DNA from: Candidatus Zixiibacteriota bacterium
GTDB lineage: Bacteria > Zixibacteria > MSB-5A5 > WJJR01 > JAJRUJ01
NCBI GenBank assembly: GCA_020051695.1
Contig: JAGVQM010000031.1
Location: forward strand, 62,001 to 126,000
DNA length: 64,000 nucleotides
Direction: 5' to 3'
Of this stretch, positions 1-55,154 are shown piece by piece (positions within the stretch are counted from its first letter, which is position 1; the number at the start of each line of letters is the position of its first letter). The position numbers were made by a program, and so were the translations under genes. The notes under the pieces were generated by a model. It searched no databases. It saw only the letters and a list, made by a program, of their open reading frames with translations, and was not told where the DNA came from.

Positions 1-192
1 TGGCAATCCAGCGGCCAACCCGACAACATCGGCTGGCTGGAGACCGAGGCGGGTCGGGCCTTCGTCGAAAATTATTCCACGCCCGATTGGACCGGCCTGA
101 CCGGCGAAGAAAAATACAATTTGCGACAAAACGATCCGCTCAACTACGACACACCTCGGCAAATACGGCTGGGGCTGCGGCTGCATTTTTAA
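1..192 (+). CDS. C-terminal end of a TonB-dependent receptor-like outer-membrane protein (partial)
   Basis: The frame is open from base 1 to the TAA at 190-192 and gives 63 residues. It ends PRQIRLGLRLHF, with alternating hydrophobic residues and a final Phe. That is the usual last beta-strand signature of outer-membrane barrels recognised by the BAM complex, and the preceding NYDTPRQIRLG stretch is typical of TonB-dependent receptors in the FCB group. The N-terminal plug and most of the barrel lie outside the window, so the substrate cannot be guessed. Its stop codon overlaps the stop codon of the convergent gene (TTA at 189-191). The barrel assignment rests on the tail alone. Confidence 0.6.
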   Translation, partial: WQSSGQPDNIGWLETEAGRAFVENYSTPDWTGLTGEEKYNLRQNDPLNYDTPRQIRLGLRLHF

Positions 193-1829
193 TCGGAGAG
201 AACACTCCCCGGGACAATCGTATCGCCTTGTACTGCCTGACTCACGGGGATGAACCAGAATGGTTTTTCCCACATCGAGTAATAACTTGCATCCGGCAGC
301 AATTCCAGATTCTGGTCGAAATACCGGTTGAGAATTACGCGAAAGGTGTTGACCGGCGTGATCGTGTCATATAACAGACTGTCGCCACCGTGGGGCAGAT
401 AATAGGCGTTCAGGATGCTCAGCCGTTCACGCATATTGGTCCGTTCGCTGCTGTTCCAATCCAGATACGCCCCCGGGCCGTGGTCGGATTGCAGGACGAT
501 AATCGGCGGTTGGGAAGAAGCCGCCAGAATTGACTCGATGGCCGTGACGATAATTTTCTCGATGAACTGCAACTGATCGCGATATAACATGATGTAGCCG
601 TCCTGTCGAGTATTCAGGCGGCCGATCAGCCAGTTCCCGTCGGCCAGACTCCAGGCAATCGGCGGGTCGCGCGGTTCGCCGTTCGGTCCGAAAATAAATG
701 GCGGGTGCGGCGCAACCAGGTGCGCGAAGACGAATTTCGGTGAAACCCGCTGCGGCATCTCGGCCAGCAGGTCGGCAGTCCGCAAAATCAACTCCCGCCG
801 GGCTTCGGCCTGCAGATGGCTGAGTCTTTCCCCCCAAAAGGGGACAGGCTTGGTGGACGGGATCAGGAACGGCAATGCCGTACTATTAATCAAACCGCTC
901 TGGAATTCATCCAGGAAGCCGACTTTGCTGGCCGGTTCCAGAAAAACATCCGCGTCGCGCATCTCGGTCGCCGGTGAGCCGGTGGCGAACGCCATGGTGG
1001 TATATCCCCGCTCGCGCAGGAAACGTACCACCCGGCTGTTCAAGAGTATGCGGTCCAATGCCTGCGTATCTTTCGCATTCGCGTAGTACCCGTCCTCGTC
1101 CGCGTCGAGGTATTTGTAATTCAGTGATGACGACAGTGAGAGTGTGGTTTGGCAATAATTCGAACCGCTACGTCCGCCGATATAAAATCCGCGCTGCCTG
1201 AGATAATTATATAATCGGCTGTCGGGATATTCGTACAGGTCGGCCAGGACATCTTCCCGGGCGAAACCGTCAAGGATGATATAGTAAATATCCGGCAGTT
1301 GCGCCTGTGTATCCCTCTTCTCTGCAGCTGGCTGCTCCACGGGTATTCCATCTGCGGCTGTCGGCCGGCTCCCGCCGGCGAGGAAGGCAAAAAACATCGT
1401 GGTCAACGGTACCGCGATTAGGATGACCGTCACGGCATTGGCCCAGCGGGTCAGTCCGGCAGGTTCGTGCCGGGTCCGGAGCAGCAGGAATCCTCCGCCG
1501 AGAAACAGCAGGGCAAACAGCGGCTTGAGCACGAAATTGGCCCCTTCGCGCAGCGTAAACGGGCGGACAGAGAAAAAATACCACAACAGGTCGTACAATT
1601 GGCCATAGGAAAAAAACAACAGGAGAAACAGCGACGTGATCAATGCTCCCTTTCCGATGCTGCGAAAGATGAGGCCGAAGACCAGCCATAACATTAGCGC
1701 CAGCAGCAGACAGACCGCCGCCGGGATTACCATGACCGCCGGCGGGTATTCGCTCATATTCCGACTATAGAGGAATACTGTGGGGAACAGCGCGAACAGC
1801 AGCGGATGAACGATGAATGGTTTTTTCAT
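189..1829 (-). CDS. Membrane-anchored sulfatase/alkaline-phosphatase-fold protein, copy 2
   Basis: A 546-residue protein. The first ~170 residues hold about five hydrophobic segments with short loops, so the N-terminus is a polytopic membrane anchor. The rest looks extracytoplasmic and has the alkaline phosphatase/sulfatase fold: a first metal motif YYIILDGFARED, a possible nucleophile region NYCQTTLSLSSS (Thr rather than the Cys/Ser of true arylsulfatases) and a second metal motif QSDHGPGAYLDW. Proteins of this plan include phosphoglycerol and phosphoethanolamine transferases, so transfer to a surface glycan is as likely as sulfate hydrolysis. I chose the ATG at 1829 because a purine-rich stretch precedes it, it starts 11 bases after the upstream stop, and it begins the first membrane segment (MKKPFIVHPLL). 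It is a close paralogue of the gene before it and is probably cotranscribed with it. Confidence 0.75.
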   Translation of the reverse strand: MKKPFIVHPLLFALFPTVFLYSRNMSEYPPAVMVIPAAVCLLLALMLWLVFGLIFRSIGKGALITSLFLLLFFSYGQLYDLLWYFFSVRPFTLREGANFVLKPLFALLFLGGGFLLLRTRHEPAGLTRWANAVTVILIAVPLTTMFFAFLAGGSRPTAADGIPVEQPAAEKRDTQAQLPDIYYIILDGFAREDVLADLYEYPDSRLYNYLRQRGFYIGGRSGSNYCQTTLSLSSSLNYKYLDADEDGYYANAKDTQALDRILLNSRVVRFLRERGYTTMAFATGSPATEMRDADVFLEPASKVGFLDEFQSGLINSTALPFLIPSTKPVPFWGERLSHLQAEARRELILRTADLLAEMPQRVSPKFVFAHLVAPHPPFIFGPNGEPRDPPIAWSLADGNWLIGRLNTRQDGYIMLYRDQLQFIEKIIVTAIESILAASSQPPIIVLQSDHGPGAYLDWNSSERTNMRERLSILNAYYLPHGGDSLLYDTITPVNTFRVILNRYFDQNLELLPDASYYSMWEKPFWFIPVSQAVQGDTIVPGSVLSD

Positions 1830-41328: not shown

Positions 41329-42255
41329 CTACTGATCTTCGCCCGGTATTTTCACTTGTTTGGAGGGTGGCAGTGGTTTGCCCCGGGTCAATTCGCTGAT
41401 CAACAGCCGGGGGCGGAACGCCGCGTCGGTCTCCCCGAGGTATTGGCGAACTGGGCCGAAACGGAATTCGGACAACAGGCGTTCAAGTTTGTAGATCGTC
41501 GTGGTCAGGTTGGTGTAATGTCTAAATCTGCTCAGGGTGGATATCGCGGTCCGGGGCTGGTCGGGGTCGATTTCCCAGGGGTGAAGATAGACCACGGCCG
41601 GTCGGCCCTGTTTATTGGCTGCCCGGATTGCATACCGGGTGTACCAATAGGGGAACAAGCGCAGGTATCCGCCGCCGGCCGCCGGCACATTTTGTCCCAG
41701 TAGCCGCAGGGTGGTCAGCGGGATTTCGTCCATGATCTGCCCATTCTCCAATTCGAAACGGAACGGCTGGCGGGGGAGGTCCGGCGAGCCGTACGTGTCA
41801 TGATGAATCGGGAAGACCGATGAATCATAGGTGAAGCCCAGCTCGGCCAGCACCTGCCAGGCCCAGGGCGTCCGTTCGCCGATGGAGAAACTCGGCGCTC
41901 GGTATCCCCGGATTTCCACGTCCGACGCCTTCCGGATCAGTTCGAGCGACCGCGCTACGTCCGCGCGGAATTCCGCCTCAGTCAGCGTGTAAACCAGCCG
42001 ATGGCCGTAACCGTGCGAGGCGATTTCGTGGCCGAAGGAGGCGATCCGTTCCACCATGCCGGGAAGTCTTTCGGCAACCCAGCCCAGCATAAAAAAAGTG
42101 GCGTGGACACCGAAACGCTCGAAGATTTCCAGCAGGGTCATGACATTCGGCCAGACCCGCACCTGCGTATGTTCCCAATCGGCAAAAGGCACTGCCGCGG
42201 ACTGGGCTTCGGCCTGAAACCAGTCCTCGACATCAACCGATAAAATATTGAGCAT
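41329..42255 (-). CDS. Polysaccharide deacetylase (DUF3473 / XrtA-type)
   Basis: A 308-residue NodB-type deacetylase. The metal site is made by SVDVEDWFQAE (Asp pair) and SHGYGHRLVY (two His), with the catalytic RGYRAPSFSIGE and the YLHPWEID motif. The C-terminal DUF3473 part (LSRFRHYTNLTTTIYKLERLL) is the one found in exosortase/PEP-CTERM-associated deacetylases. It removes N-acetyl groups from an extracellular or membrane-linked polysaccharide. It lies 35 bases after the BY-kinase gene and belongs to the exopolysaccharide unit. No exosortase or PEP-CTERM protein is in the window. The ATG at 42255 begins the conserved MLNILSVDVEDW. Confidence 0.92.
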   Translation of the reverse strand: MLNILSVDVEDWFQAEAQSAAVPFADWEHTQVRVWPNVMTLLEIFERFGVHATFFMLGWVAERLPGMVERIASFGHEIASHGYGHRLVYTLTEAEFRADVARSLELIRKASDVEIRGYRAPSFSIGERTPWAWQVLAELGFTYDSSVFPIHHDTYGSPDLPRQPFRFELENGQIMDEIPLTTLRLLGQNVPAAGGGYLRLFPYWYTRYAIRAANKQGRPAVVYLHPWEIDPDQPRTAISTLSRFRHYTNLTTTIYKLERLLSEFRFGPVRQYLGETDAAFRPRLLISELTRGKPLPPSKQVKIPGEDQ

Positions 42256-42290
42256 TTCGGGACGTGCTCCCCACACCCGCACCCGTCCGG

Positions 42291-43097
42291 TTACCGGGTG
42301 TTTTTATACCGATACCCGTAGTATTTCTGGCTATAATAATAGGGGAGCGCCTCATCGAGGTTGTTGAGCACCACACCCAGCAGATTCAGTTTGCTGTTGC
42401 GGATCATCTGGGCCGCCCGTATGGCCACCTCGCGCTGCGTGCTGCCCGCGCGGATTACCATTAAGACGCCGTCGACATTACGTCCGATGGTAATGGCATC
42501 GTCTACGGGAATAATCGGCGCACAGTCAATGACAATCCGGTCGAAGTAAAATGACGCTTCGGCGAGCAGGTCGGGCCAGCGCTCGGCGTTTAACAGGTCC
42601 GACGGATCTCCCGTGGTGGACCCGGCGGTCATCACCTTGAGTTTATCGACCGCGGTCGTCCGGACGCACGAATCGAACGAACCGGCGTCCTTCAGGCATT
42701 CAGACAGCCCGCCGGACAGCGGCTCGCCGAACATGCGATGAACGGTCGGTCGTCGCATATCGCAATCCAAAAGCAGCGTCCGCTGGTCAAGATAGATTGC
42801 CGCGGTCAGGGCGACAAAAGCGGCGACCGTGCTTTTGCCCTCGTCGGTCACTGATGAGGTGATCAAAATCTTCTTGGGGCCGGCCGGTTTTTCCGGGAGA
42901 TCGGCAGTCCACCCGATGCCGTCGCAGATGCGACGGAACTCGGTGGCCGGGACGCTCTCCGCCCGAAATATATCCACGATCGTCCGGTTGGACACGGCAT
43001 TGGTTTTCGGTTTGGGGGACAGTTTTGCGGCGGCTATCGCCGCCGGGGATCGGGGCGTGTCGCGTTTGGCCACTGGTGTTCCATTTTCATTCGGCAT
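42291..43097 (-). CDS. BY-kinase (CpsD/CapB-type tyrosine autokinase) for exopolysaccharide export
   Basis: A 268-residue cytoplasmic tyrosine kinase. It has a Walker A-type loop SSVTDEGKST, Walker A' LLLDCDMRRPTVHR and Walker B FDRIVIDCAPI, and a C-terminal tyrosine cluster PYYYSQKYYGYRY, the autophosphorylated tail that drives ring assembly and disassembly. The first ~45 residues are a low-complexity, Ala/Pro/Lys-rich extension. The membrane adaptor is a separate gene (the GumC-like protein), as in Gram-positive CapA/CapB and in PEP-CTERM-type clusters. The ATG overlaps the end of the TPR gene by 11 bases, so translation is coupled. Confidence 0.92.
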   Translation of the reverse strand: MPNENGTPVAKRDTPRSPAAIAAAKLSPKPKTNAVSNRTIVDIFRAESVPATEFRRICDGIGWTADLPEKPAGPKKILITSSVTDEGKSTVAAFVALTAAIYLDQRTLLLDCDMRRPTVHRMFGEPLSGGLSECLKDAGSFDSCVRTTAVDKLKVMTAGSTTGDPSDLLNAERWPDLLAEASFYFDRIVIDCAPIIPVDDAITIGRNVDGVLMVIRAGSTQREVAIRAAQMIRNSKLNLLGVVLNNLDEALPYYYSQKYYGYRYKNTR

Positions 43098-44463
43098 GTT
43101 CTACGCTTCCATCATTTCCGGTGTCTTGAGTCTGATCCGCCACCCGGGGGGCGGGGGGCAGGAGTGTCCGGCCGCTTTTCAATGCGGCTTTTACCAGCAC
43201 CGACATCCCTTTGTCCTCGTTTTCGGCCAACTTTTTGTTACGTCGCGCGGCGCCGAATTCGGGGTTTATTTTCAGGGCGCGTTCATATTCCCGGATCGAC
43301 CGGCGGTGGACCAACTGGGCCAGGATCGTATACGACTGGGCCAGACGAAAATGCAGGTCGGCGAAATGAGGGTGGGTTTTTACGCGGTCGCGCAAATCGG
43401 CGATTTCCGCTGAAAGCTCGGCTTCCGACGGCATAAAGCGGTCGGAACATAACGCCAAATCCAAAGGCGAGACCGGGATCGGTTGGACTGAACCCCGGGC
43501 CTGGATTTTGGCCGCCGCGTATGCATCGTATGCTTCAGCCAGGCGGTCCTCTTCAAGGTATCGCTGCCCGAGGAAATATGTGCCCGACCGCAGGGTGGGG
43601 AGGATAATTGCCGCTTTTTCGAACAGGTCCATCGCCTTACGCTTTAGGTCGATGTTCATGCGGTAATCCTCACGCCGGATCCCGTTGAGGATGTGCGCCA
43701 GCGCCATATTGTAGTATGGTTCCCAGAAGTACGGGTTTTTCTGCGCGGCCTGGCGGAATTTGTCCACTGCCTTGCGGCAGGATGATAGTTCCATGTATGC
43801 TTCGCCCAGGCGGTTGACATAATCGGGATACTCGGGATTGAGTTTCTCCGCACGTTGCAGGTACTCGGCTGCTTCGTTATATAAATTGAGATTTAAATAG
43901 CAGCACCCCAGGTTATAAAGAGCTTTATCGTATTCGGGCGCCAGCAGCACCGCCCGGTCGAATTCGCGCCGCGCCTCCAGCCACATCGAGCGCGAGGCAA
44001 AAAGTTCACCGATATAATTCAATAACGCCGGTTCATGGGCATTGGCCGCCGACAACGACAATTTAAATACGCGGTCCAGCTCGGCGGCCGCGCGTTCGTG
44101 CATGCTTTTCAGGGCCGGGAAGATGCGCTCGGTCGGCACACCGTCGATCTGCTCGCCGTCGATGGTGGTCAGCCGCACACCCTCGCCGAAAATATCACAG
44201 CGCATCCGCTTGCTGACCGGGTCGACCGTGCTCTGCACGAGATATTCACGTTCGGCATGTTTCAGCCGGGTGTTCAAACGCAGCAGGGAAGCGGCCGACG
44301 AATCGGGGTGCCCGCCCCCGCCGCTGATCCTGCGAGACGCCGGTTCGGGGACCACCACGCCGGATGGCTGGGCTTCCTGATCAGCCAGAGTATCCGGCGC
44401 TCGTTCTGCCGAAATATTCTGGGAGACCGAAATGTCGGTGATGTCATCATTTCTTCCCTGCAA
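43087..44463 (-). CDS. TPR-repeat protein of the exopolysaccharide unit
   Basis: A 458-residue protein I place by context. The N-terminal ~90 residues are polar. Then about six to seven TPR repeats run from ~120 to 400 (EFDRAVLLAPEYDKALYNLG, YLQRAEKLNPEYPDYVNRLG, KFRQAAQKNPYFWEPYYNMA). There is no signal peptide or membrane segment. It starts at a TTG with AGGAGG six bases before it, and that TTG overlaps the end of the GumC-like gene by 17 bases. It also overlaps the BY-kinase start. The coupling on both sides suggests an assembly role with the export apparatus. Confidence 0.82.
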   Translation of the reverse strand: MQGRNDDITDISVSQNISAERAPDTLADQEAQPSGVVVPEPASRRISGGGGHPDSSAASLLRLNTRLKHAEREYLVQSTVDPVSKRMRCDIFGEGVRLTTIDGEQIDGVPTERIFPALKSMHERAAAELDRVFKLSLSAANAHEPALLNYIGELFASRSMWLEARREFDRAVLLAPEYDKALYNLGCCYLNLNLYNEAAEYLQRAEKLNPEYPDYVNRLGEAYMELSSCRKAVDKFRQAAQKNPYFWEPYYNMALAHILNGIRREDYRMNIDLKRKAMDLFEKAAIILPTLRSGTYFLGQRYLEEDRLAEAYDAYAAAKIQARGSVQPIPVSPLDLALCSDRFMPSEAELSAEIADLRDRVKTHPHFADLHFRLAQSYTILAQLVHRRSIREYERALKINPEFGAARRNKKLAENEDKGMSVLVKAALKSGRTLLPPAPRVADQTQDTGNDGSVEHAE

Positions 44464-45970
44464 ATTTGGCCTCCTTCAGGGCAGTAATCCGCGGCACGGT
44501 GGCCAGCACCTTGAAGCCCAGTTGCTCTTCCACATCGTCGACGGTGCGGAACGAATGATCGTTATACTCCGCGAGGAACACGAGCACCATCCCGAAGACC
44601 AGGCCGATCATGGCTGCGGCGATGGCGAATTTCGACCGGTCAGGATAAACCGGCGTGGTCGGTACCAGCGGTGTCTCGATCAGCGTATACTTGGATTCGG
44701 CCGCAGCACGCTGCTGGGCCTGCAAAATCTGGGCGCCCGTATATTGCTCGACAAACCGGTTGTAAATATCGCGGCTGGAGGCCTCCTCGGTTTCCAATCG
44801 GCGTTGCTGCTGCTCATATTCCGGTCCAGTGGCCATGCGGTCCCGGATGCGGTTGACGATCCGGCTCATGACCTCTTTTTTCTTGACCAGAAAATCCAGC
44901 TTGTTGCGGGAATAGACCAGTTCGACCATGGCGTCATGATCTTCCGGGGAGAGGTTGGTGAATGTCTCATCGATGATCCGCGTGATTTCCGCCTGAATGT
45001 TGTTTAACCCGGTCCCCAGGCGGTAGTTGTAATCCACGACCCCGCGGTCTTTCCAGGAATATTTGCCCAGCAGACTGCCCAGCCGGTCGATCAGCGATAA
45101 TTGCTCGCCGTGCAGGGTGGTCAGGCGCTCGGAATACACGAAATCAGCACGGGCGACGCCCTCTTCGCCCAGCTGGTTTTCCAGTTGGGCGATCCGTTCG
45201 ATGGCGTTGGCGTGGTCCAGACTTAACGCGTCCCGTTCCCCGACGATGTCCTGGAGATTGACCTCGGTTTCCAACTGGTCATCGACCGCCTGGCGGACTT
45301 TCTGGCTTTTGAATTCAGCCAGCCGGTTCTGGGCTTCCGCCCATTTTTCACGGTAAATTTCCAGTTGCTCCTCGGAAAATTCGCCGGCGACGCGGATGGC
45401 CGCGACTTCTTCCCGGATCATGTTTTCGCGGAAGATTTCCGCCAAGTGAGTGGCCGCATCTTTGGCTTCTACCGGGTCGGATGATGGAATAACGATTTCC
45501 GCGTAGTCATCGCCGATCAACCCGACCCGGATTTCTTTTTGCAACCGGGTGACCAGGAAAGCGATGGCCGCCCGCCGGGCATCGGAGGTTGCCCGCGCGG
45601 CCTGCGCCTCCGGCCCGCCTTCCGCCAGCATTTTGTCGACCCAGCCCATGCGGCCGATCAGTTGTTCCAAATAACCGGATGAAAGGACACGCCGGCGGAG
45701 TGTTTCCACTTTTTCACTCGGCGACCGGTAATCGTAACGGCGCTCCGCCGACTCGGAGGTCAAACCCCGCACTGATGCGCCCAGGATACTCTGCTGCCCC
45801 AGACGGATAAGCGCGGTCGATTCGTATCGTGGTGTCAGCAAGAACGAACCGATAATCGTCCCGCCGGTGACGGTGATAATCGCCAGGATCAGGTACCATT
45901 TCCGGCGATTAAGTATCCGCGCGTATTCACGCAGATTAATCGTCGTTTCTCCGGATTCACGCATGGTCAT
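44447..45970 (-). CDS. GumC/Wzz-type polysaccharide chain-length determinant
   Basis: A 507-residue inner-membrane protein of the PCP family. Transmembrane segments lie at about residues 25-47 (WYLILAIITVTGGTIIGSFLL) and 462-483 (FAIAAAMIGLVFGMVLVFLAEY). Between them is a long periplasmic coiled-coil region of about 400 residues (ERIAQLENQLGEEG, REKWAEAQNRLAEFK). The YPDRSKFAIAAA stretch carries the proline-rich pre-TM2 motif region. The C-terminal tail is short and cytoplasmic, and the kinase domain is in a separate gene. It controls polymer length and links the export channel to the BY-kinase. It is 16 bases after the Wza-like gene and overlaps the TPR gene. Confidence 0.92.
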   Translation of the reverse strand: MTMRESGETTINLREYARILNRRKWYLILAIITVTGGTIIGSFLLTPRYESTALIRLGQQSILGASVRGLTSESAERRYDYRSPSEKVETLRRRVLSSGYLEQLIGRMGWVDKMLAEGGPEAQAARATSDARRAAIAFLVTRLQKEIRVGLIGDDYAEIVIPSSDPVEAKDAATHLAEIFRENMIREEVAAIRVAGEFSEEQLEIYREKWAEAQNRLAEFKSQKVRQAVDDQLETEVNLQDIVGERDALSLDHANAIERIAQLENQLGEEGVARADFVYSERLTTLHGEQLSLIDRLGSLLGKYSWKDRGVVDYNYRLGTGLNNIQAEITRIIDETFTNLSPEDHDAMVELVYSRNKLDFLVKKKEVMSRIVNRIRDRMATGPEYEQQQRRLETEEASSRDIYNRFVEQYTGAQILQAQQRAAAESKYTLIETPLVPTTPVYPDRSKFAIAAAMIGLVFGMVLVFLAEYNDHSFRTVDDVEEQLGFKVLATVPRITALKEAKFAGKK

Positions 45971-45985
45971 TGGTCTGGTGCGCTC

Positions 45986-46948
45986 CTATCGGCTGATAAG
46001 TAAAATCGCTGATGATACCGTCCCGGCCAGGGCCAGGACATCACGGAACGCGCCCCAGCTCCCGGAGAAAAAGCCCCGTTTTTTTGTCGGGATAAAAATT
46101 GCGTCCTCGCGCTGTACCAGATATTGGTACGGCCCCCCCGTTTCGCCATACCGCTCAAGATTGACCACCCGCACGACGGGGCGGTCGAGGCCTTTGGATA
46201 CTATACGGACTTTGGACAAATCTGCGTTGGCCCCGGGACCTCCCGAAACGACCAACGCCTCCAGCAGGTCGATTTCGGCGTCGATGGCGTGCCGGCCGGG
46301 AGCTGCAACGTTACCGTAAATATAAAATGCGTTCGTGCGTTTGGAGGCGTCGACAAACCGTTCAGGGTTCAAACCCTCCGGCAGCCGGGGGATGGTAACC
46401 GTATATCCGGATTGCAATTCCGGCAGCCGGTCCAGCTCGCCGGTGGAGAGAATTTCGCCTACATCCACGTGAATGACCCCGCCCCCTGCCGCAGCCGAGC
46501 GCAGGATGGTGACATCGGACAAATCCGCCGATTCAGTCGGCCCCCCCGCCAGTTTGATTACCTCCCACAAATCCGGGATTTTTTCGAAGTACATCATCCC
46601 GGGGTTGGCCACCTGATCGCCGACAAAGACACTGCGGCTGCGGTAGGCGGAGACCGTGACCACGACCTGGGAGATGTTTTTATTAACTCGCGAGATCCGC
46701 TCGACGATCAACTGCTCCAGCCGCCCGGTGGTCATTCCGGCGGCCTGAGTTTCCCCAATGACTGCCAGCGTGATCTTGCCGTCGATACGGACGGTCACGG
46801 TCTGGTCAAGTTCCGGCTGCTGCCAGTAGCTGATTTGCAGGACATCGTTGGGGCCGATGACATATTCCTGAGTCTGGCCGGCTACGGGAAGAGCGGCCGA
46901 CCAGATGAGTACCATCGCCAATCCAAGACACGTGCACGTGCGTTTCAC
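45986..46948 (-). CDS. Wza-like polysaccharide export protein (SLBB domains)
   Basis: A 320-residue export protein. It has an export signal (MKRTCTCLGLAMVLIWSAAL), then the polysaccharide biosynthesis/export domain beginning YVIGPNDVLQISYW, and two SLBB domains (SVFVGDQVANPGMMYFEKI and AFYIYGNVAAPGRHAID). No lipobox cysteine is in the usual place, so anchoring may differ from Wza. It ends in a short hydrophobic stretch (VLALAGTVSSAILLIS) that could cross or insert in the outer membrane. It starts at a GTG with AAGGAG six bases upstream. It is 17 bases after the diguanylate cyclase gene. Confidence 0.93.
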   Translation of the reverse strand: MKRTCTCLGLAMVLIWSAALPVAGQTQEYVIGPNDVLQISYWQQPELDQTVTVRIDGKITLAVIGETQAAGMTTGRLEQLIVERISRVNKNISQVVVTVSAYRSRSVFVGDQVANPGMMYFEKIPDLWEVIKLAGGPTESADLSDVTILRSAAAGGGVIHVDVGEILSTGELDRLPELQSGYTVTIPRLPEGLNPERFVDASKRTNAFYIYGNVAAPGRHAIDAEIDLLEALVVSGGPGANADLSKVRIVSKGLDRPVVRVVNLERYGETGGPYQYLVQREDAIFIPTKKRGFFSGSWGAFRDVLALAGTVSSAILLISR

Positions 46949-46965
46949 ATCGCTCTCCTTTTTTG

Positions 46966-48075
46966 TTACCGGCGGTCAGTGGGGGGTGAAATCACGCCCA
47001 TCCCCGGTTGATAAATAATTGCCCGATCGCCGCCGCCTTCCTTGGCTTTCAATAAAGCCATGTCCGCGCACCAAAACAAATGCTCCGCGTCGCCGGCATG
47101 GTCCGGGAATACCGCGGCGCCCAGGGAAATCGAGGTCCTGGTGGTTTCCTGCCGCGGGGCCGGCCGGAACACTTGCTCGAATATGACACTCCGCAACCGG
47201 TTGGTAAAGGAAAAACAATTGGGCAGCGAGGTTTCCGGCATGATTATTACAAATTCATCCCCTCCATAGCGACAGGCGATATCAATGGACCGTACCGTCT
47301 GGTTCAACAACCCGGCGACGATTTTAAGCACTTCGTCGCCCGCCAGGTGGCCCTGGTGGTCGTTCAGCTGTTTGAAGCGGTCCAAGTCAAAGACCACCAG
47401 CGACAAGGAGCGGGAAAAACGCGACGCGCGTGTGATTTCCTCATCAAGGCGCCGTTTGAGGAAGCGGCGGTTGAATAACCCGGTCAGCGGGTCCGTGTAT
47501 GAGAGCGCTTCCAGGCAGGCGATCCGCTCCTGGTTTTGCAGGGCCAGATCGAAATGGCCCAACCAGTGTTCCAGCCGGCATTGCTGCTTTGCGCTGAGCG
47601 GCAGGCTGTCCCGCGTGCCGAAGATCCCCACTATCCGCATCCCCTGTTTTTCGTCCACTTCACAGGAAAATTGCCAGGTCATCTCCGGGTAAGCCGAATG
47701 TTCGAGTCTCACGTGGGGTTTCAATCGCCGGCTTTGCCGGGAAGATGTCGGCAGATCAGCCAAAACCGCCTGAACCATCTCCCCGGTTGCCCCCCGGGAA
47801 CACAGTGTCTCAGGCGTTTCATCCTGCCCCTGGTGATGAATGAAAATCGAACGCGACAGGCCGAAATGTTCCGCCAGCAGTGCGGCAAACATCTCACACA
47901 GCGGACGCTGTTCGCGGATCTGGAGCCACTTGGCAAACTCCTCTTCAAGGATTTGGTCGACGGTATAAGGAGTTTCATCGGGGATGTCGTCCCCGATGCG
48001 CTCACGCCGGAGACGTCCCGGCCGCAAGATCCATGACAGTCTTCGGGGCATAACAGGCCCCCCATCGGGCCGCAT
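46966..48075 (-). CDS. GGDEF diguanylate cyclase
   Basis: A 369-residue c-di-GMP synthase. The N-terminal ~190 residues are a GAF-like sensor region (EEEFAKWLQIREQRPLCEMF, then SIFIHHQGQDETPE). The GGDEF domain follows, with TGLFNRRFL, DLDRFKQLNDHQGHLAGDEV and an intact active site CRYGGDEFVI. The inhibitory I-site RSID lies five residues before GGDEF, so product feedback is expected. There is no EAL domain and no membrane segment. The ATG overlaps the TGA of the STAS gene (TGATG), so the two are translationally coupled. It is directly ahead of the export genes, which points to c-di-GMP control of this polysaccharide. Confidence 0.94.
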   Translation of the reverse strand: MRPDGGPVMPRRLSWILRPGRLRRERIGDDIPDETPYTVDQILEEEFAKWLQIREQRPLCEMFAALLAEHFGLSRSIFIHHQGQDETPETLCSRGATGEMVQAVLADLPTSSRQSRRLKPHVRLEHSAYPEMTWQFSCEVDEKQGMRIVGIFGTRDSLPLSAKQQCRLEHWLGHFDLALQNQERIACLEALSYTDPLTGLFNRRFLKRRLDEEITRASRFSRSLSLVVFDLDRFKQLNDHQGHLAGDEVLKIVAGLLNQTVRSIDIACRYGGDEFVIIMPETSLPNCFSFTNRLRSVIFEQVFRPAPRQETTRTSISLGAAVFPDHAGDAEHLFWCADMALLKAKEGGGDRAIIYQPGMGVISPPTDRR

Positions 48076-48779
48076 CACATGAACGTTTTCCGCATTCGTC
48101 GGCAATAGCGAAATCGGGCCCGTCGCGTAAGCATGTGCTGCCGGCGCAGACTGCCGAAAACCTTCCACCAGCCGGACGGCCGCCGACCGCCGTGGTTTTC
48201 CTGTAGTCGTTGCCGCATCTCCCCGATTGTTTGAAACGGGTCCTCGGCCACCAATTGCATGACTACTTCATCGAGTGTCGGCAGCGGTTGCCCCTCAGGC
48301 AGTTTCCCCTTGTCGGTCGGTGTGGATGTGGAAGGTCGGGCAGCCGGAACAGGTGTCACCGCCGCATTACGACGGTTGTCGGGGCCTTGGAATTCGGCGA
48401 CCGCCGAATCCAGTTCGTCGAAATAAGGCAATAATCCGTCAAACTCGAGAAGTTCGTATATCTCGCGCACGTCTGGAGTCATGCGGGCCAGTTTGATGTC
48501 CCCTGCCCGCTCCCGGATCTCCCGGAGATGGGAAACAAAAACACCCCAGCCCGCGCTGGAGATGTATTCAACGCCCGCCAAATCGACGACCAGCCGATAA
48601 CGCCCGCGGGCAATCAGCGAGGAAATGACCTGTTCCAGGTCGCCCGCAGTCATGGTATCGACTGCGCCATCGACCCGGACAATCGAGATCTCGCGGGTCG
48701 GGCCGGCGGTGGAGACGGCGATTTTCAGTCCGTTCCCGTCAACCGCCGCCGCGTTTATGTCATGACCGGCATGTTCCAT
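48075..48779 (-). CDS. STAS-domain protein with C-terminal helical extension
   Basis: A 234-residue protein. Residues ~25-125 form a STAS (anti-sigma-factor antagonist) domain: IVRVDGAVDTMTAGDLEQVI, RLVVDLAGVEYISSAGWGVF, then IKLARMTPDVREIYELLEF. The SSAG stretch has a serine at the usual phosphorylation site. A proline/threonine-rich linker (~132-160) leads to an unrecognised C-terminal part (DEVVMQLVAEDPFQTIGEM, then WWKVFGSLRRQHMLTRRARF) that looks helical and basic. It is coupled to the GGDEF gene through TGATG and is the first gene of this compact unit. No ribosome-binding site is clear at 48779. Confidence 0.85.
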   Translation of the reverse strand: MEHAGHDINAAAVDGNGLKIAVSTAGPTREISIVRVDGAVDTMTAGDLEQVISSLIARGRYRLVVDLAGVEYISSAGWGVFVSHLREIRERAGDIKLARMTPDVREIYELLEFDGLLPYFDELDSAVAEFQGPDNRRNAAVTPVPAARPSTSTPTDKGKLPEGQPLPTLDEVVMQLVAEDPFQTIGEMRQRLQENHGGRRPSGWWKVFGSLRRQHMLTRRARFRYCRRMRKTFM

Positions 48780-50583: not shown

Positions 50584-52080
50584 TTAGAACGACAGGTAAT
50601 ATAACGAGCCGCGGCGGACGATCAATAGAATCATTTTTTTGCCCTCGGCCTTGCTGGCCACGGACTTGAAATGTTCGACATTTTCAATCGGCGTATTGTC
50701 GATCTCCAGAATGACATCCCCCGCCCGCAAGCCGGAATAGGCCGCCGGTGACCGGGCCAGGATGTCTTTCACCAGCACGCCCGCCGTACCCTTGCGCAAC
50801 CCCAGCTGCTCGGCCTGGTGCCCGGTTATGTTCTCCACGACGACGCCTTCAATCTGGCTGACCCATTCATCGGAGGAATCTGACAAATAAATATATTCCG
50901 AGGGTGTTTCTTCGATAGTCAAACTGGTTTGGCGTTTTTGCCCGCGGCGGTAGTATTCAAGGTCCACCGATTTGCCGCTCGGCGCCAGGGCGATCAGGTA
51001 TTTCAGCCGCGCGGCGTTGGTCACTTCCTGCCCGTCCAGCGCGGTGATGATGTCACCGCGCTGCAGGCCGGCTTTGGTGCCGGGCCCTTTGTCCATGACA
51101 TCATTGACCAGCGCACCGCGCAGCCCCTCGGCGTTAAACGCGGGCGCAATATCGGGGTCCAGATCCTGATAGGTGATCCCCGCCCACCCACGGACGAAGC
51201 GGCCCTGGTCGATGATCGAGTTCATCACTGTCTGTGCCATATTGGCGGGGATGGCGAAGCCGATGCCCTGATACCCGCCGCTCCGCGAAAAAATTGCCGT
51301 ATTGATGCCGATCAATCGGCCGGAAATGTCGACCAGGGCGCCCCCGGAATTGCCGGGATTGATTGCCGCATCGGTCTGAATGAAATCCTCGTACTCGACC
51401 ATGCCGACATTGGCCCGGCCCTTGGCGGAAATGATGCCCATCGTGACCGTCTGCCCCAGACCGAACGGATTGCCCAGCGCCAGCACCACATCGCCAATAT
51501 TAGCGGCGTCCGAATCCCCAAAGGGAATTGTCGGGAAATTCACACTATCCAGCTTGAGCACCGCCACATCGGTTTCCGGGTCGGCGCCGACAATGCGCGC
51601 ATTGAATTGGCGGCCGTCCGGAAGATACGCCAGCACTTCCGTGGCATTTTCGACGACATGGTTATTGGTCAGCACATACCCGTCCGCGGTGACAATGACT
51701 CCCGAACCCAACGACCGCTCCCGCCGTTCCCGAGGGACCGAAAAAAAACGCCGCCCGAAGAAATCAAAAAATGGATCACTGCCGAACGGGCTGGTCTGTA
51801 CGCGTTCCTGCACGATGCGAGTTGACGAGACGTTGATGACTGCCGGCGCGACGGCATGGGCGATGTCCGAAAACGACCAACCCCCCGGCCCCGCGACCGG
51901 TTGGCGCGGCTGGACCAGGTTGGATTCCCCGGTTTCCTGAGCCGCCGCCGGACGCACGAACTCAGCCGCGTGATTATTGACGGCCCCCATCCCCTCGAAT
52001 GAAACGCCCACAGCCAGCCCGGCCAGAAAACAAAATCTCAGCCCGAACAAGACCAATCCTGTTTTTCTATTTGTTCCCAT
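50584..52080 (-). CDS. htrA: HtrA/DegP-type Do-family periplasmic serine protease
   Basis: A 498-residue Do protease. An N-terminal hydrophobic signal or anchor (residues ~8-26) leads to a trypsin-like domain with H141 (LTNNHVVEN), D171 (ETDVAVLKLD) and S245 (NPGNSGGALV), all intact. Two PDZ domains follow (about 280-375, VRGWAGITYQDLDPD; and about 410-498, VVENITGHQAEQLGL then GDVILEIDNTPI). It degrades or refolds misfolded envelope proteins. GGAGG precedes the ATG at 52080 by 9 bases. It is divergent from the hybrid histidine kinase gene, with about 250 bases between them. A role in stress response to that kinase is possible but not shown. Confidence 0.96.
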   Translation of the reverse strand: MGTNRKTGLVLFGLRFCFLAGLAVGVSFEGMGAVNNHAAEFVRPAAAQETGESNLVQPRQPVAGPGGWSFSDIAHAVAPAVINVSSTRIVQERVQTSPFGSDPFFDFFGRRFFSVPRERRERSLGSGVIVTADGYVLTNNHVVENATEVLAYLPDGRQFNARIVGADPETDVAVLKLDSVNFPTIPFGDSDAANIGDVVLALGNPFGLGQTVTMGIISAKGRANVGMVEYEDFIQTDAAINPGNSGGALVDISGRLIGINTAIFSRSGGYQGIGFAIPANMAQTVMNSIIDQGRFVRGWAGITYQDLDPDIAPAFNAEGLRGALVNDVMDKGPGTKAGLQRGDIITALDGQEVTNAARLKYLIALAPSGKSVDLEYYRRGQKRQTSLTIEETPSEYIYLSDSSDEWVSQIEGVVVENITGHQAEQLGLRKGTAGVLVKDILARSPAAYSGLRAGDVILEIDNTPIENVEHFKSVASKAEGKKMILLIVRRGSLYYLSF

Positions 52081-52330
52081 CTTTAATTTCCTCCAGTTGC
52101 GGGTTGGGCCATGTCCCTGTTGTACAACAAACAATCCCGGATTTTCCCTGCTTCATGTAGAAAACAACGCGGCGCGGGGAAGTCAAGTTCAATGGCTGTG
52201 TTGCGAATTTCCCCTCGGGCCGAAGAGCGAAATCAGGATGATCCGCCGGGTCGGCCCCGTCAGGAACGCGCCTTTGGCCGCCGATATAAAAGTAAGGTGG
52301 ACAAGAAAATCTCCAACCGATGGGATGAAT

Positions 52331-54517
52331 ATGATGACACAAAAAACCGCCACGCGCCGCGTAACCGAAAGTCAGAGTTTTGCGGCAGCGGTTGGTACCA
52401 CCGAACAAACCAAAATACTCGTAATCGACAGCGACCAACTGGTGCATCAACAAGTACGCCAACTGGTTGCTGCTGAAAACTGCATGGTTGACCACGCCTC
52501 CTCGACCAGCGAGGCCTCCACGCTACTGGCCGGCAATCAATATGACATCCTGATTGCCGAGGTCGGAGTCGACGGTATCGACGCTTTCGGCCTGATTCAC
52601 GGTGCCCGGCGCAGAGATGCTGAACTGACGGCTATTGCAGTGTCGCGTCGCCCAACAACAGAGCTGGCCATCAATGCGCTTAAAGAGCGGGTTTTCGATT
52701 TTCTGACCAAACCGCTGGATCAAACCGAACTGCGTTTGACCATCTTGCGCGCCACCGAAATACATCGCCTGAATCTGGCGAAAACGCGTTTGCTGGAGGA
52801 CGCGCGGCAAAAGAAAATCCAGCTGACCCAGCGTGTCGCCGAGTTGAATGCGTTGGCCGACGCCGCAGGGGTGCTGTCCTCCTCCGGTGATTTGACCCGG
52901 CTGCTCGACGCCATCATGCACCTTGCCGCCAAAGTCACCATGGCCCGCCACGGATCGATTATGCTGTTGGAGGCCGGTGATGAAACGCTGCGCATCAAAG
53001 CCACAGTCGGCCCGGAAGCGTCCCGGTTGCTGGAGCTTAGTCTGCCGGTGGGCGAATCAATTGCGGGGTGGGTGGCCCAGCGTGGGGAGGCGTTGAAAAT
53101 CGATGATGTAGAAGCCGATCCGCAGTTCGGTCGGGCCAACCGCCAGGGATTTGAAACCAAATCCCTGCTGTCGGTCCCCCTGTGCACTCCCAACCGGGTG
53201 GTCGGTGTGATCAACCTCTCGGACAAAGCAGGCGGTGAGCCGTTCACCGATTGGGACCTGCGTATTCTGCGGACATTTGCTGCGCAGGTCTCGATGGCGA
53301 TCAGCGACGCCGAACAATTCCAGCGCAACCGGCGCAAGCTGGCGGAAGTGACCGCGTTATATGAGATCTCCCGCAAGATCCCGACAGTCACCGGTTCGGA
53401 TGAAGTGGCCGAGGTCATTTTCGACGGGCTCAAAGCCATTGTGGACTGTGATACAAAAATCTGGTTTGAACCGGCTCACGATACCGGCGAATTGGTGGCC
53501 GTGCGGGTCGATGGCGCACTGAAGAACTACCATCGCGAGCAGGGATTGACCATCCCGGCGTGGACGGGCGCCGAACCGAATGAACCGGCGCTTGCCGGAT
53601 ACATTGCCGATGCCCTGACCAAAATTGTCCCCGCAAGTGCGGCAATGTCTTCCATCCTGGTTTCGCCGGTCGGAACACCGGCCGGCAAAGGCGAGGTCGA
53701 AACATCCCCCGCCTTTTGCGGCGTGATTGTGCTTCTGGCGGCCCGGCCCCGCGCTTTCGACTCGTACACCGAACGGCTGGTTCGCGTCGCCACGGCCCAG
53801 GCCGCTGCATTGTACGAGCGCAAAAGCGCGTTGCTGAATGCCTCCCGGCTGGTCACGATGGGCAAGATGATCTCGGAAATCTCCCACGATTTGCGCAAGC
53901 CGCTGACCAACACCAAAGGTTCATTGCAGGTCATCTGCGCCAAACATGGCCTGCCGGAAAAAACTGTGCACGTCCTGCAGTCAATCGAACAGGAGATCGA
54001 CCGCCTGGCGGCACTGGTTACCGAGCTGGTGGATTTCTCCAACCCCAAAAAATACCAGACCCGCAAAGGCCCGATTAAACCGGTGATCGACCGCGCCTAT
54101 CGCCTGGTCGAAAAAGATGCCCGGCAGAAAAAACTGCAGCTTGTCGTGGAATTGGCCGACGACCTGCCGCCGTTTTTCCATGATGAAAACCAGATGATGG
54201 AAGTCTGCCTGAACCTGATCCTGAATGCGTTTGAGAGTATGGAACCCGGTGGCTCGCTGACGATCCGGGGCCTTCTACAGAAATGTCCGGACAAACAGCG
54301 AGATTGTATCTGCCTGGAGTTCGAAGACACCGGCTGCGGCATCCCCAGGGAAAACCTGGCGCGGATTTTTGAGCGGTACTATACCGGACGCGAAAACGGC
54401 ACCGGGCTGGGACTGGCGATTGTGGAACGAATTGTCCAGGCCCATGAGGGGAAAATCGAGGTCGAATCTCGTCCCGGCCGGACCGTATTCCGTTTGTTGT
54501 TTCCCATTGAGCGATAG
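52331..54517 (+). CDS. Hybrid histidine kinase: degenerate receiver, GAF domains, HisKA-HATPase
   Basis: A 728-residue soluble kinase. Residues ~25-140 form a receiver domain (KILVIDSDQLVHQQVR, then FDFLTKPLDQTEL) in which the phosphoacceptor Asp is Glu77 (YDILIAEVGVDG). One or two GAF domains follow (~185-480, SIMLLEAGDETLRIKATVG and AGWVAQRGEALKIDDVE). The transmitter has the phosphorylated H519 in MISEISHDLRKPLT, the N-box LNLILNAFESM and ATP-lid motifs FEDTGCGIP and GTGLGLAIVER. It has no membrane segment, so it senses something inside the cell. No separate response regulator is near. The start is one of three close ATG codons at 52325, 52331 or 52334. It ends at a palindromic repeat ahead of recR. 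Confidence 0.92.
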   Translation: MMTQKTATRRVTESQSFAAAVGTTEQTKILVIDSDQLVHQQVRQLVAAENCMVDHASSTSEASTLLAGNQYDILIAEVGVDGIDAFGLIHGARRRDAELTAIAVSRRPTTELAINALKERVFDFLTKPLDQTELRLTILRATEIHRLNLAKTRLLEDARQKKIQLTQRVAELNALADAAGVLSSSGDLTRLLDAIMHLAAKVTMARHGSIMLLEAGDETLRIKATVGPEASRLLELSLPVGESIAGWVAQRGEALKIDDVEADPQFGRANRQGFETKSLLSVPLCTPNRVVGVINLSDKAGGEPFTDWDLRILRTFAAQVSMAISDAEQFQRNRRKLAEVTALYEISRKIPTVTGSDEVAEVIFDGLKAIVDCDTKIWFEPAHDTGELVAVRVDGALKNYHREQGLTIPAWTGAEPNEPALAGYIADALTKIVPASAAMSSILVSPVGTPAGKGEVETSPAFCGVIVLLAARPRAFDSYTERLVRVATAQAAALYERKSALLNASRLVTMGKMISEISHDLRKPLTNTKGSLQVICAKHGLPEKTVHVLQSIEQEIDRLAALVTELVDFSNPKKYQTRKGPIKPVIDRAYRLVEKDARQKKLQLVVELADDLPPFFHDENQMMEVCLNLILNAFESMEPGGSLTIRGLLQKCPDKQRDCICLEFEDTGCGIPRENLARIFERYYTGRENGTGLGLAIVERIVQAHEGKIEVESRPGRTVFRLLFPIER

Positions 54518-54557: not shown

Positions 54558-55154
54558 CTAAAACTCCGTGCGGCCTTCGAGTGCTTTGGCCAGCGTATGC
54601 AGATCGGCATACTCGACATCACCGCCCATCGGCAACCCCCGGGCAATGCGCGAAACTTTCACGCCCAACGGTTTGAGCAGTTTGGCGATATACAACGCCG
54701 TAGTCTCGCCCTCGGGCGTGGGGTTGGTGGCAAGAATAATTTCCTCGACATCGCTTTTGGCGCGGGTGACCAGTTCGGCGATTTTTAAATCCTCAGGCCC
54801 GATACCATCCAGCGGCGCAAACACTCCCCCAAGTACATGGAACACCCCGTCAAATGACCCGGCGCGCTGCAGCGCGACCACATCGTGCGGTTCTTCCACC
54901 ACGCAAATCAGTTTGCGGTTGCGTTCCTCATCGCCGCAGATCGGGCAGGGGTCGTCATCGGAGATATTAAAACACACCGAGCAGGAGCGGATTTTCTCTT
55001 TGACGTTCAGGATGGCCCGGGCCAGTTCGCGCGCGGCTTCCGGCGGGGCTTTGAGCACATGATAGGCGAGCCGATAGGCGGTCTTCCGGCCGATACCCGG
55101 CAGTCGGGAAAACTGGTCGACTAATTCTTCGAGGGTAGCTGAGGTTTGGGTCAT
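54558..55154 (-). CDS. recR: Recombination protein RecR
   Basis: A 198-residue recombination mediator that works with RecO and RecF to load RecA on gapped DNA. The N-terminal helix-hairpin-helix holds LPGIGRKTAYRLAYH. The zinc finger is CSVCFN..CPIC, and the Toprim domain shows ICVVEEPHDVVAL, ILATNPTPEGETTALY. The C-terminal ARGLPMGGDVEYAD is the RecR hallmark. It is the last gene of dnaX-ybaB-recR, an arrangement common in bacteria. Length is normal. Confidence 0.97.
   Translation of the reverse strand: MTQTSATLEELVDQFSRLPGIGRKTAYRLAYHVLKAPPEAARELARAILNVKEKIRSCSVCFNISDDDPCPICGDEERNRKLICVVEEPHDVVALQRAGSFDGVFHVLGGVFAPLDGIGPEDLKIAELVTRAKSDVEEIILATNPTPEGETTALYIAKLLKPLGVKVSRIARGLPMGGDVEYADLHTLAKALEGRTEF

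Follow-up and report, generated by a model that had tools for sequence, protein, structure and literature searches.

Kinase B and its receiver in the window

Within the window, meaning the whole 64,000-nucleotide stretch of DNA that was analysed, a forward-strand gene encodes a histidine kinase, here called B, whose N-terminal receiver and helix are followed by two inserted GAF domains and then by the HisKA and HATPase modules.

Table 1. Kinase B, its domains and site residues, and its neighbours in the window
Feature	Position	Strand	Evidence or remark
Kinase B, REC-GAF-GAF-HisKA-HATPase_c	52331..54517	+	728 aa, ATG at 52331
Pseudo-receiver, residues 27-146	52409..52768	+	Pfam PF00072 E 1.9e-13; AF2 pLDDT ∼93
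Acidic pair: D33 present, S34 for metal-binding acid	52427..52432	+	orthologue alignment
E77 (GAG) at phospho-Asp site	52559..52561	+	orthologue alignment
K127-P128, conserved Lys-Pro present	52709..52714	+	orthologue alignment
GAF domain 1	52889..53302	+	Pfam E 5.6e-23; Z 19.9 to solved GAF
GAF domain 2	53330..53818	+	predicted fold only in the window's B
HisKA including H519 (codon 53885-53887)	53858..54043	+	Pfam
HATPase_c	54182..54511	+	Pfam
HtrA/Deg-type PDZ protease, divergent neighbour, outside ancestral gene row	50584..52134	-	
RecR, convergent neighbour, outside ancestral gene row	54558..55154	-	

The sequence-only reading had taken this frame for a cytoplasmic histidine kinase with GAF domains and a normal H519, and most of that description held: Pfam matched Response_reg, one GAF, HisKA and HATPase_c, H519 is present within HisKA, and no membrane-like segment was seen (best 19-residue Kyte-Doolittle mean, 1.34), which fits a cytoplasmic protein. 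The plural in "GAF domains" went beyond the single Pfam match but agreed with the predicted fold, in which the middle region is a GAF (pLDDT 90.5, Z ∼14 to solved GAF structures); Pfam GAF_2 matched this region in 21 of 32 B sequences scanned, the window's B not being among them. The closest named match was JAJRUJ010000082.1, at 57% identity, and its kin place the window's genome with Candidatus Zixiibacteriota. The window gave no Rfam match at the gathering threshold and no tRNA. On the reverse strand at 41329-48168, we also noted an exopolysaccharide-type cluster comprising a deacetylase with DUF3473, ParA-like, TPR, Wzz-like and polysaccharide export proteins, a full GGDEF protein and a STAS protein.

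In the orthologue alignment, the five classic receiver positions of the window's B read D33, S34, E77, S105 and K127. Glu therefore does stand in the column of the phosphoacceptor Asp, and the Lys of the site is retained, both as proposed from the sequence; the acidic pair, which had been thought intact, is not, since its second member, the acid that binds the metal directly (PMC12632262, excerpt), is Ser. Another acidic residue, D35, sits one position beyond the pair. Three further positions that are >80% conserved in 83 orthologues (Pro at D+4, Gly at D+8 and Thr at the T87 site) are changed both in the window's genome (G000) and in G001, the sole other genome of its family, which belongs to a different genus; at the T87 site, the window's B has Ser and its sister Ala. 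The receiver model retained the (beta/alpha)5 fold, matched CheY-like receivers with Z ∼20 and an rmsd of 1.7-1.8 over 124-125 residues, and had a last helix extending to residue 184 (AF2). Judged by E77, S34 and the missing loop Pro and Gly, this domain is a typical pseudo-receiver that can probably no longer take phosphate.

The gene row and the receiver site among relatives

B is flanked in most relatives by two genes on its own strand, A upstream and C downstream; among 92 loci read, A was upstream of B in 78 and C was present in 81. A is a GAF-HisKA-HATPase kinase, and C, which combines a receiver, a sigma-54 AAA+ domain and a Fis-type HTH, is an NtrC-type regulator. From its layout, we call the A-B-C row a putative operon. 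An NtrC regulator upstream of B was considered and rejected, the upstream gene being kinase A and the regulator C lying downstream. Among the best 25 NCBIfam families, the top model for B was AtoS at 193.9 bits (cut-off 646), and that for the C of G001 was AtoC at 422.2 bits (cut-off 714), with PrsR (TIGR02915) at 383.1 bits (cut-off 502.6); since no model among these 25 reached its cut-off, B and C are left without these names.

The row is not present in the window, where B stands alone between the HtrA-type protease and RecR. An orthologue of C was found elsewhere in the same genome (G000:C27:16957-18351; L164:10440-11858), 81% identical to the C of G001 where the next best match reached 39%, and its receiver site reads as intact in the alignment; the genes of the row in G000 seem to be spread across three contigs, C21, C27 and C38. 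An exosortase gene (Exosortase_EpsH) and a gene with DUF3485 are located ∼4 kb away from this C (region L164:4619-6303). This C is followed at L164:12157-12690 by a short GGDEF-like protein with a weak Pfam match below cut-off, and such a protein is often found downstream of C in other genomes too; judged by eye, gene clusters 9, 12 and 14 of the row comparison are of this same short kind. Kinase A is longer in four genomes, G078 (L098), G082 (L103), G085 (L100) and G097 (L101), with frames of 726-871 aa, and that of G078 carries extra PAS domains, so the input domains of A vary.

A B orthologue was present in 92 of the 98 genomes searched, G000 included, and the phospho-Asp column of these 92 rows held Asp in 84, Glu in 2 (G000 and G001), Val in 1 (G006) and a gap in 5; as the receiver of G006 is missing, its Val is a misalignment of a fusion protein. 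Asp is therefore the rule, and we rejected Glu as a family-wide trait of B orthologues. Every one of the 78 orthologues next to a kinase A had the phospho-Asp (D57), as did all 9 of the 11 held-out loci that have A, each with an intact site (87 of 87 in total). All five site residues were present in 75 of the 78, the second acid being changed in the other three (Asn in G017 and G024, Ala in G035). The receiver table leaves out G006, whose receiver is deleted, and the fragments G047, G071, G077 and G089; G020, G088 and G092, in which B is at a contig end, were not scored as lacking A, and the A profile described below finds A in all three.

Co-occurring losses of kinase A and the receiver

We built a profile of kinase A from 32 sequences and searched 132 genomes of the phylum at a threshold of E ≤ 1e-110, which matched 117. 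The 15 genomes without A were G000 and G001; G002; G006; G009 and G018; G052, G068, G125 and G126; and G013, G053, G089, G118 and G129, and all four genomes of family f17 were among them. Completeness was 52% for G018, 76% for G125, 68% for G126, 69-89% for the last five named, and 93-100% for the rest. Where controls scored 595 and 498 bits, the best match in G000 reached 219.5 bits and covered the kinase core only, so the window's genome yielded no A orthologue with this profile, and another kinase may act there as upstream donor; G009 gave 279.9 bits over 48-445 of a 1051-aa frame, and we are unsure of it as an A orthologue. In G125 and G126, the gene directly upstream of B, which we take to be folC-like, is the one that elsewhere precedes A, meaning that A does not occupy its usual position in these two. 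Because the assemblies of G006 and G125 are fragmented and those of G125 and G126 incomplete, an A lying elsewhere in these genomes could be missed.

In G001, A's place between the cytochrome c assembly genes and the B-C pair is taken by a GAF-only ORF (L009:4944-5840). G000 has a relative of it (L171:3066-4076), likewise after such genes and with no B and C behind. The neighbours matched Cytochrom_C_asm, CcmB and ABC transporter families in Pfam, and in this taxonomic order A likewise follows cytochrome c assembly genes. The GAF-only pair differed by 0.49/0.43/0.68 at codon positions 1/2/3. On the A profile, the two proteins scored 83.5 and 49.8 bits, a range that overlaps that of B's own GAF (54.5, 64.8 and 78.8). 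In a GAF tree, the pair grouped together, apart from the main B-GAF clade, on long branches and with its place among A sequences not settled by the tree; rows G009B, G042B and G029B of this tree seem from their branch to be B's second GAF, and G006B equals G006A. We infer that the GAF-only protein is a remnant of A.

Receiver loss, counted when D57, both acids or the entire domain had gone, was seen in 5 of 9 assessable genomes without A versus none of 87 with A, and these losses span four lineages. G000 and G001 have Glu and Ser at the site, G002 has Cys and Gly for the acidic pair with D57 present, and G006 and G125 lost the domain by deletion. In G006 (L084:1-2334), a single in-frame fusion joins A's GAF to B behind the receiver position, and the kinase core of A and the receiver of B are both absent; in G125 (L185, reverse strand), B begins at its GAF. 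The A-less genomes that keep the full site are G009 and, from one family, G052, G068 and G126. In the B of G068 (L089), GAF1 and the kinase core are separated by an in-frame stop, so that only its C-terminal frame is in the B tree and it has no entry in the rate comparison; this gene, from an A-less family, may be decaying.

Fisher's test, which ignores kinship, gave 2e-6 for 5 of 9 versus 0 of 87, 1e-5 when the incomplete G125 and G126 were left out, and 1e-4 when any change at the five positions was counted (5 of 9 versus 3 of 87). On a B tree made by a quick method, from which G125 is absent, loss of A required five changes (four of them forced) and loss of the receiver three. Branches without A make up 12% of the length of this tree, and the chance of three losses falling there is ∼0.002, or ∼0.0002 for four, a rough figure since G125 lies outside the tree. 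Loss of A and decay of the receiver thus co-occur several times over.

The receiver of the window's family has also changed much more quickly than the remainder of the protein. The B proteins of G000 and G001, which are 58% identical overall and share Glu (codon GAG in both) and Ser at the site, were 72% identical in the kinase core, 68% in GAF1 and 53% in GAF2 versus 33% in the receiver, whereas 198 other pairs matched for kinase identity had a mean receiver identity of 67% and a minimum of 49%, none being as low. The four receivers with the most excess divergence (G002, G001, G000 and G052) are all from genomes without A; G009, also without A, was outside the 15 most diverged, and G068 could not be scored. 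Within the G000-G001 receiver, identity was 20% over beta1-alpha2 and 59% over beta5-alpha5, the best-kept part, which joins the signalling helix. Differences at codon positions 1/2/3 were 0.52/0.39/0.70, a pattern indicating that the receiver is not free of constraint and one resembling that of the GAF-only pair. By the model and these comparisons, the receiver has kept its fold, and its beta5-alpha5 end best of all.

Interpretation and comparison with known systems

We consider it probable that A phosphorylated the receiver of B, that the kinase half of A was lost and that the receiver decayed. In the ancestral cascade, A would have phosphorylated B's receiver and B would have controlled C, presumably by phosphotransfer, and such a two-kinase cascade is pointed to in most genomes of the phylum examined (117 of 132 have A). 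The window's family would have lost the kinase half of A, which survived as the GAF-only protein, and B's receiver would have given up phosphate chemistry (Asp replaced by Glu, the metal acid by Ser, and no loop Pro or Gly) to become a pseudo-receiver. B would still be an ordinary kinase that its GAF domains drive, and C probably remains its target; the receiver would cap the signalling helix in a now presumably mainly structural role. The window's B might be always active, always inactive or adjusted through some other contact. Our best reading is a two-gene history in which a presumed donor kinase and its target domain were lost repeatedly, which goes beyond an ordinary pseudo-receiver. Set against the co-loss are the small number of independent A losses (about five) and the three A-bearing genomes with a changed second acid. 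The site is still intact in four genomes without A, so either decay does not always follow the loss or another donor serves them. Glu and Ser have been kept in G000 and G001 despite the low identity of their receivers, and mild selection would give the same. As a more tentative addition, which we regard as possible though doubtful, the leftover GAF-only half of A may still report to B, now by binding and perhaps via the dead receiver; the G006 fusion, with A's GAF in place of the receiver in one chain, is a parallel to such contact.

The sequence-only reading had proposed that a receiver unable to be phosphorylated probably acts as a fixed active-like domain; the first part agrees with the site residues, and the second is not supported by the rest of the domain. 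Nor could that reading take in the intact state of the ancestral receiver or the disappearance of the adjacent kinase, its likely phosphodonor. It is unlikely that E77 works as a phosphomimetic lock holding receiver and kinase in one fixed, selected state. At 26%, Glu is the commonest substitution in aspartate-less receivers (ALRs), and some receivers are activated by it (PMC4395418, PMC12632262, excerpts); both family members retain Glu, D33 and K127. However, D to E alone is often insufficient to activate a receiver (PMC4395418, excerpt). The metal acid, the loop Pro and Gly and the T site are changed in both members, and their receiver identity is below that of all 198 pairs, which looks like relaxed constraint rather than one preserved mimic state; two other A-less genomes have no receiver, which means that B does not in general require a locked one.

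A similarly low probability attaches to a repurposed sensor, in which the pseudo-receiver binds a ligand or a protein as that of ShkA binds c-di-GMP. The transcription factor TacA is of the NtrC type. TacA is activated in the ShkA precedent (PMC7010744, excerpt), a degenerate GGDEF-like gene follows C, and the codon pattern leaves the receiver some coding constraint; however, there are two sequences only, in which no conserved new surface can be discerned, and identity falls to 20% over beta1-alpha2 as against 59% over beta5-alpha5.

We give little credence to A being unrelated to the receiver, in which case Rec-HK receivers would decay occasionally and coincide with loss of A by chance within one fast-evolving order. 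Three of the four losses are indeed in one order, the events are few and four A-less genomes keep the site, but the fourth loss belongs to another family, the kinase core of A and the receiver of B are missing together in G006, and the rough tree estimate above makes so many losses on so small a share of branches improbable. A sequence or assembly error at E77 and S34 carries practically no weight, as both genomes are draft assemblies yet share E and S across two genera; the condition under which the earlier reading was to fail, Asp in most homologues with Glu as an error here, was borne out for Asp and not for the error, and by alignment the Glu is neither a sequence error nor an old trait.

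Among the matches listed, the titles and abstract openings of literature on Zixibacteria histidine kinases, two-component systems, and pseudo-receivers with partner-kinase loss gave no description of the A-B-C row or of the co-loss of A and the receiver. In LvrB, phosphorylation of the receiver by LvrA leads the signalling helices to form a coiled coil and frees the kinase (PMC13269768, PMC5863495, excerpts). B resembles LvrB in having an N-terminal receiver driving HisKA-HATPase via a signalling helix and, in its relatives, an adjoining partner kinase gene. The model of the window's B aligned to LvrB (8vc9) over 24..728 with Z 21.6 and an rmsd of 47.1 over 331 residues, meaning that the separate domains match and not their arrangement. 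The phosphorylatable Asp of LvrB-type Rec-controlled kinases is found in orthologues with A adjacent and not in the window's B or that of G001. Unlike LvrB, the window's B has two GAF domains in between, no phospho-Asp and a lost partner, and its likely output is a sigma-54 regulator, where that of LvrB is the anti-sigma protein LvrC.

ExsG, a REC-HWE kinase that acts as both response regulator and kinase, likewise has a receiver before the kinase and relays its signal to a further regulator, but its receiver works, phosphorylation of it inhibits the kinase, and the protein is of the HWE type and hexameric (PMC3899027, excerpt). ShkA of Caulobacter is also a kinase with a pseudo-receiver, which differs in being central and in binding c-di-GMP (PMC7010744, excerpt).

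Among ALRs, Glu occupies the Asp site in 26%, the first acid is kept in 65% and the second in 29% (PMC4395418, excerpt), and the second acid position is non-acidic in ∼80% of pseudo-receivers, whose activation mechanisms have been called a mystery (PMC12632262, excerpt). The window's domain has the marks of an ALR, being a receiver by sequence and fold whose phospho-Asp is replaced and in which at least one of the five site residues is missing; with its PF00072 match, Glu for Asp, the second acid lost and the first acid and Lys kept, it shows at each site the commonest ALR state (PMC4395418, PMC12632262, excerpts). It differs in being an input domain in a kinase, with its origin from an intact receiver traced along with loss of the presumed donor. 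An orthologous receiver can here be followed from intact to decayed to deleted alongside that donor, with a natural fusion as well, and this provides pairs to compare, one genome supplying A and B in intact form and a second supplying the decayed B with the GAF-only version of A.
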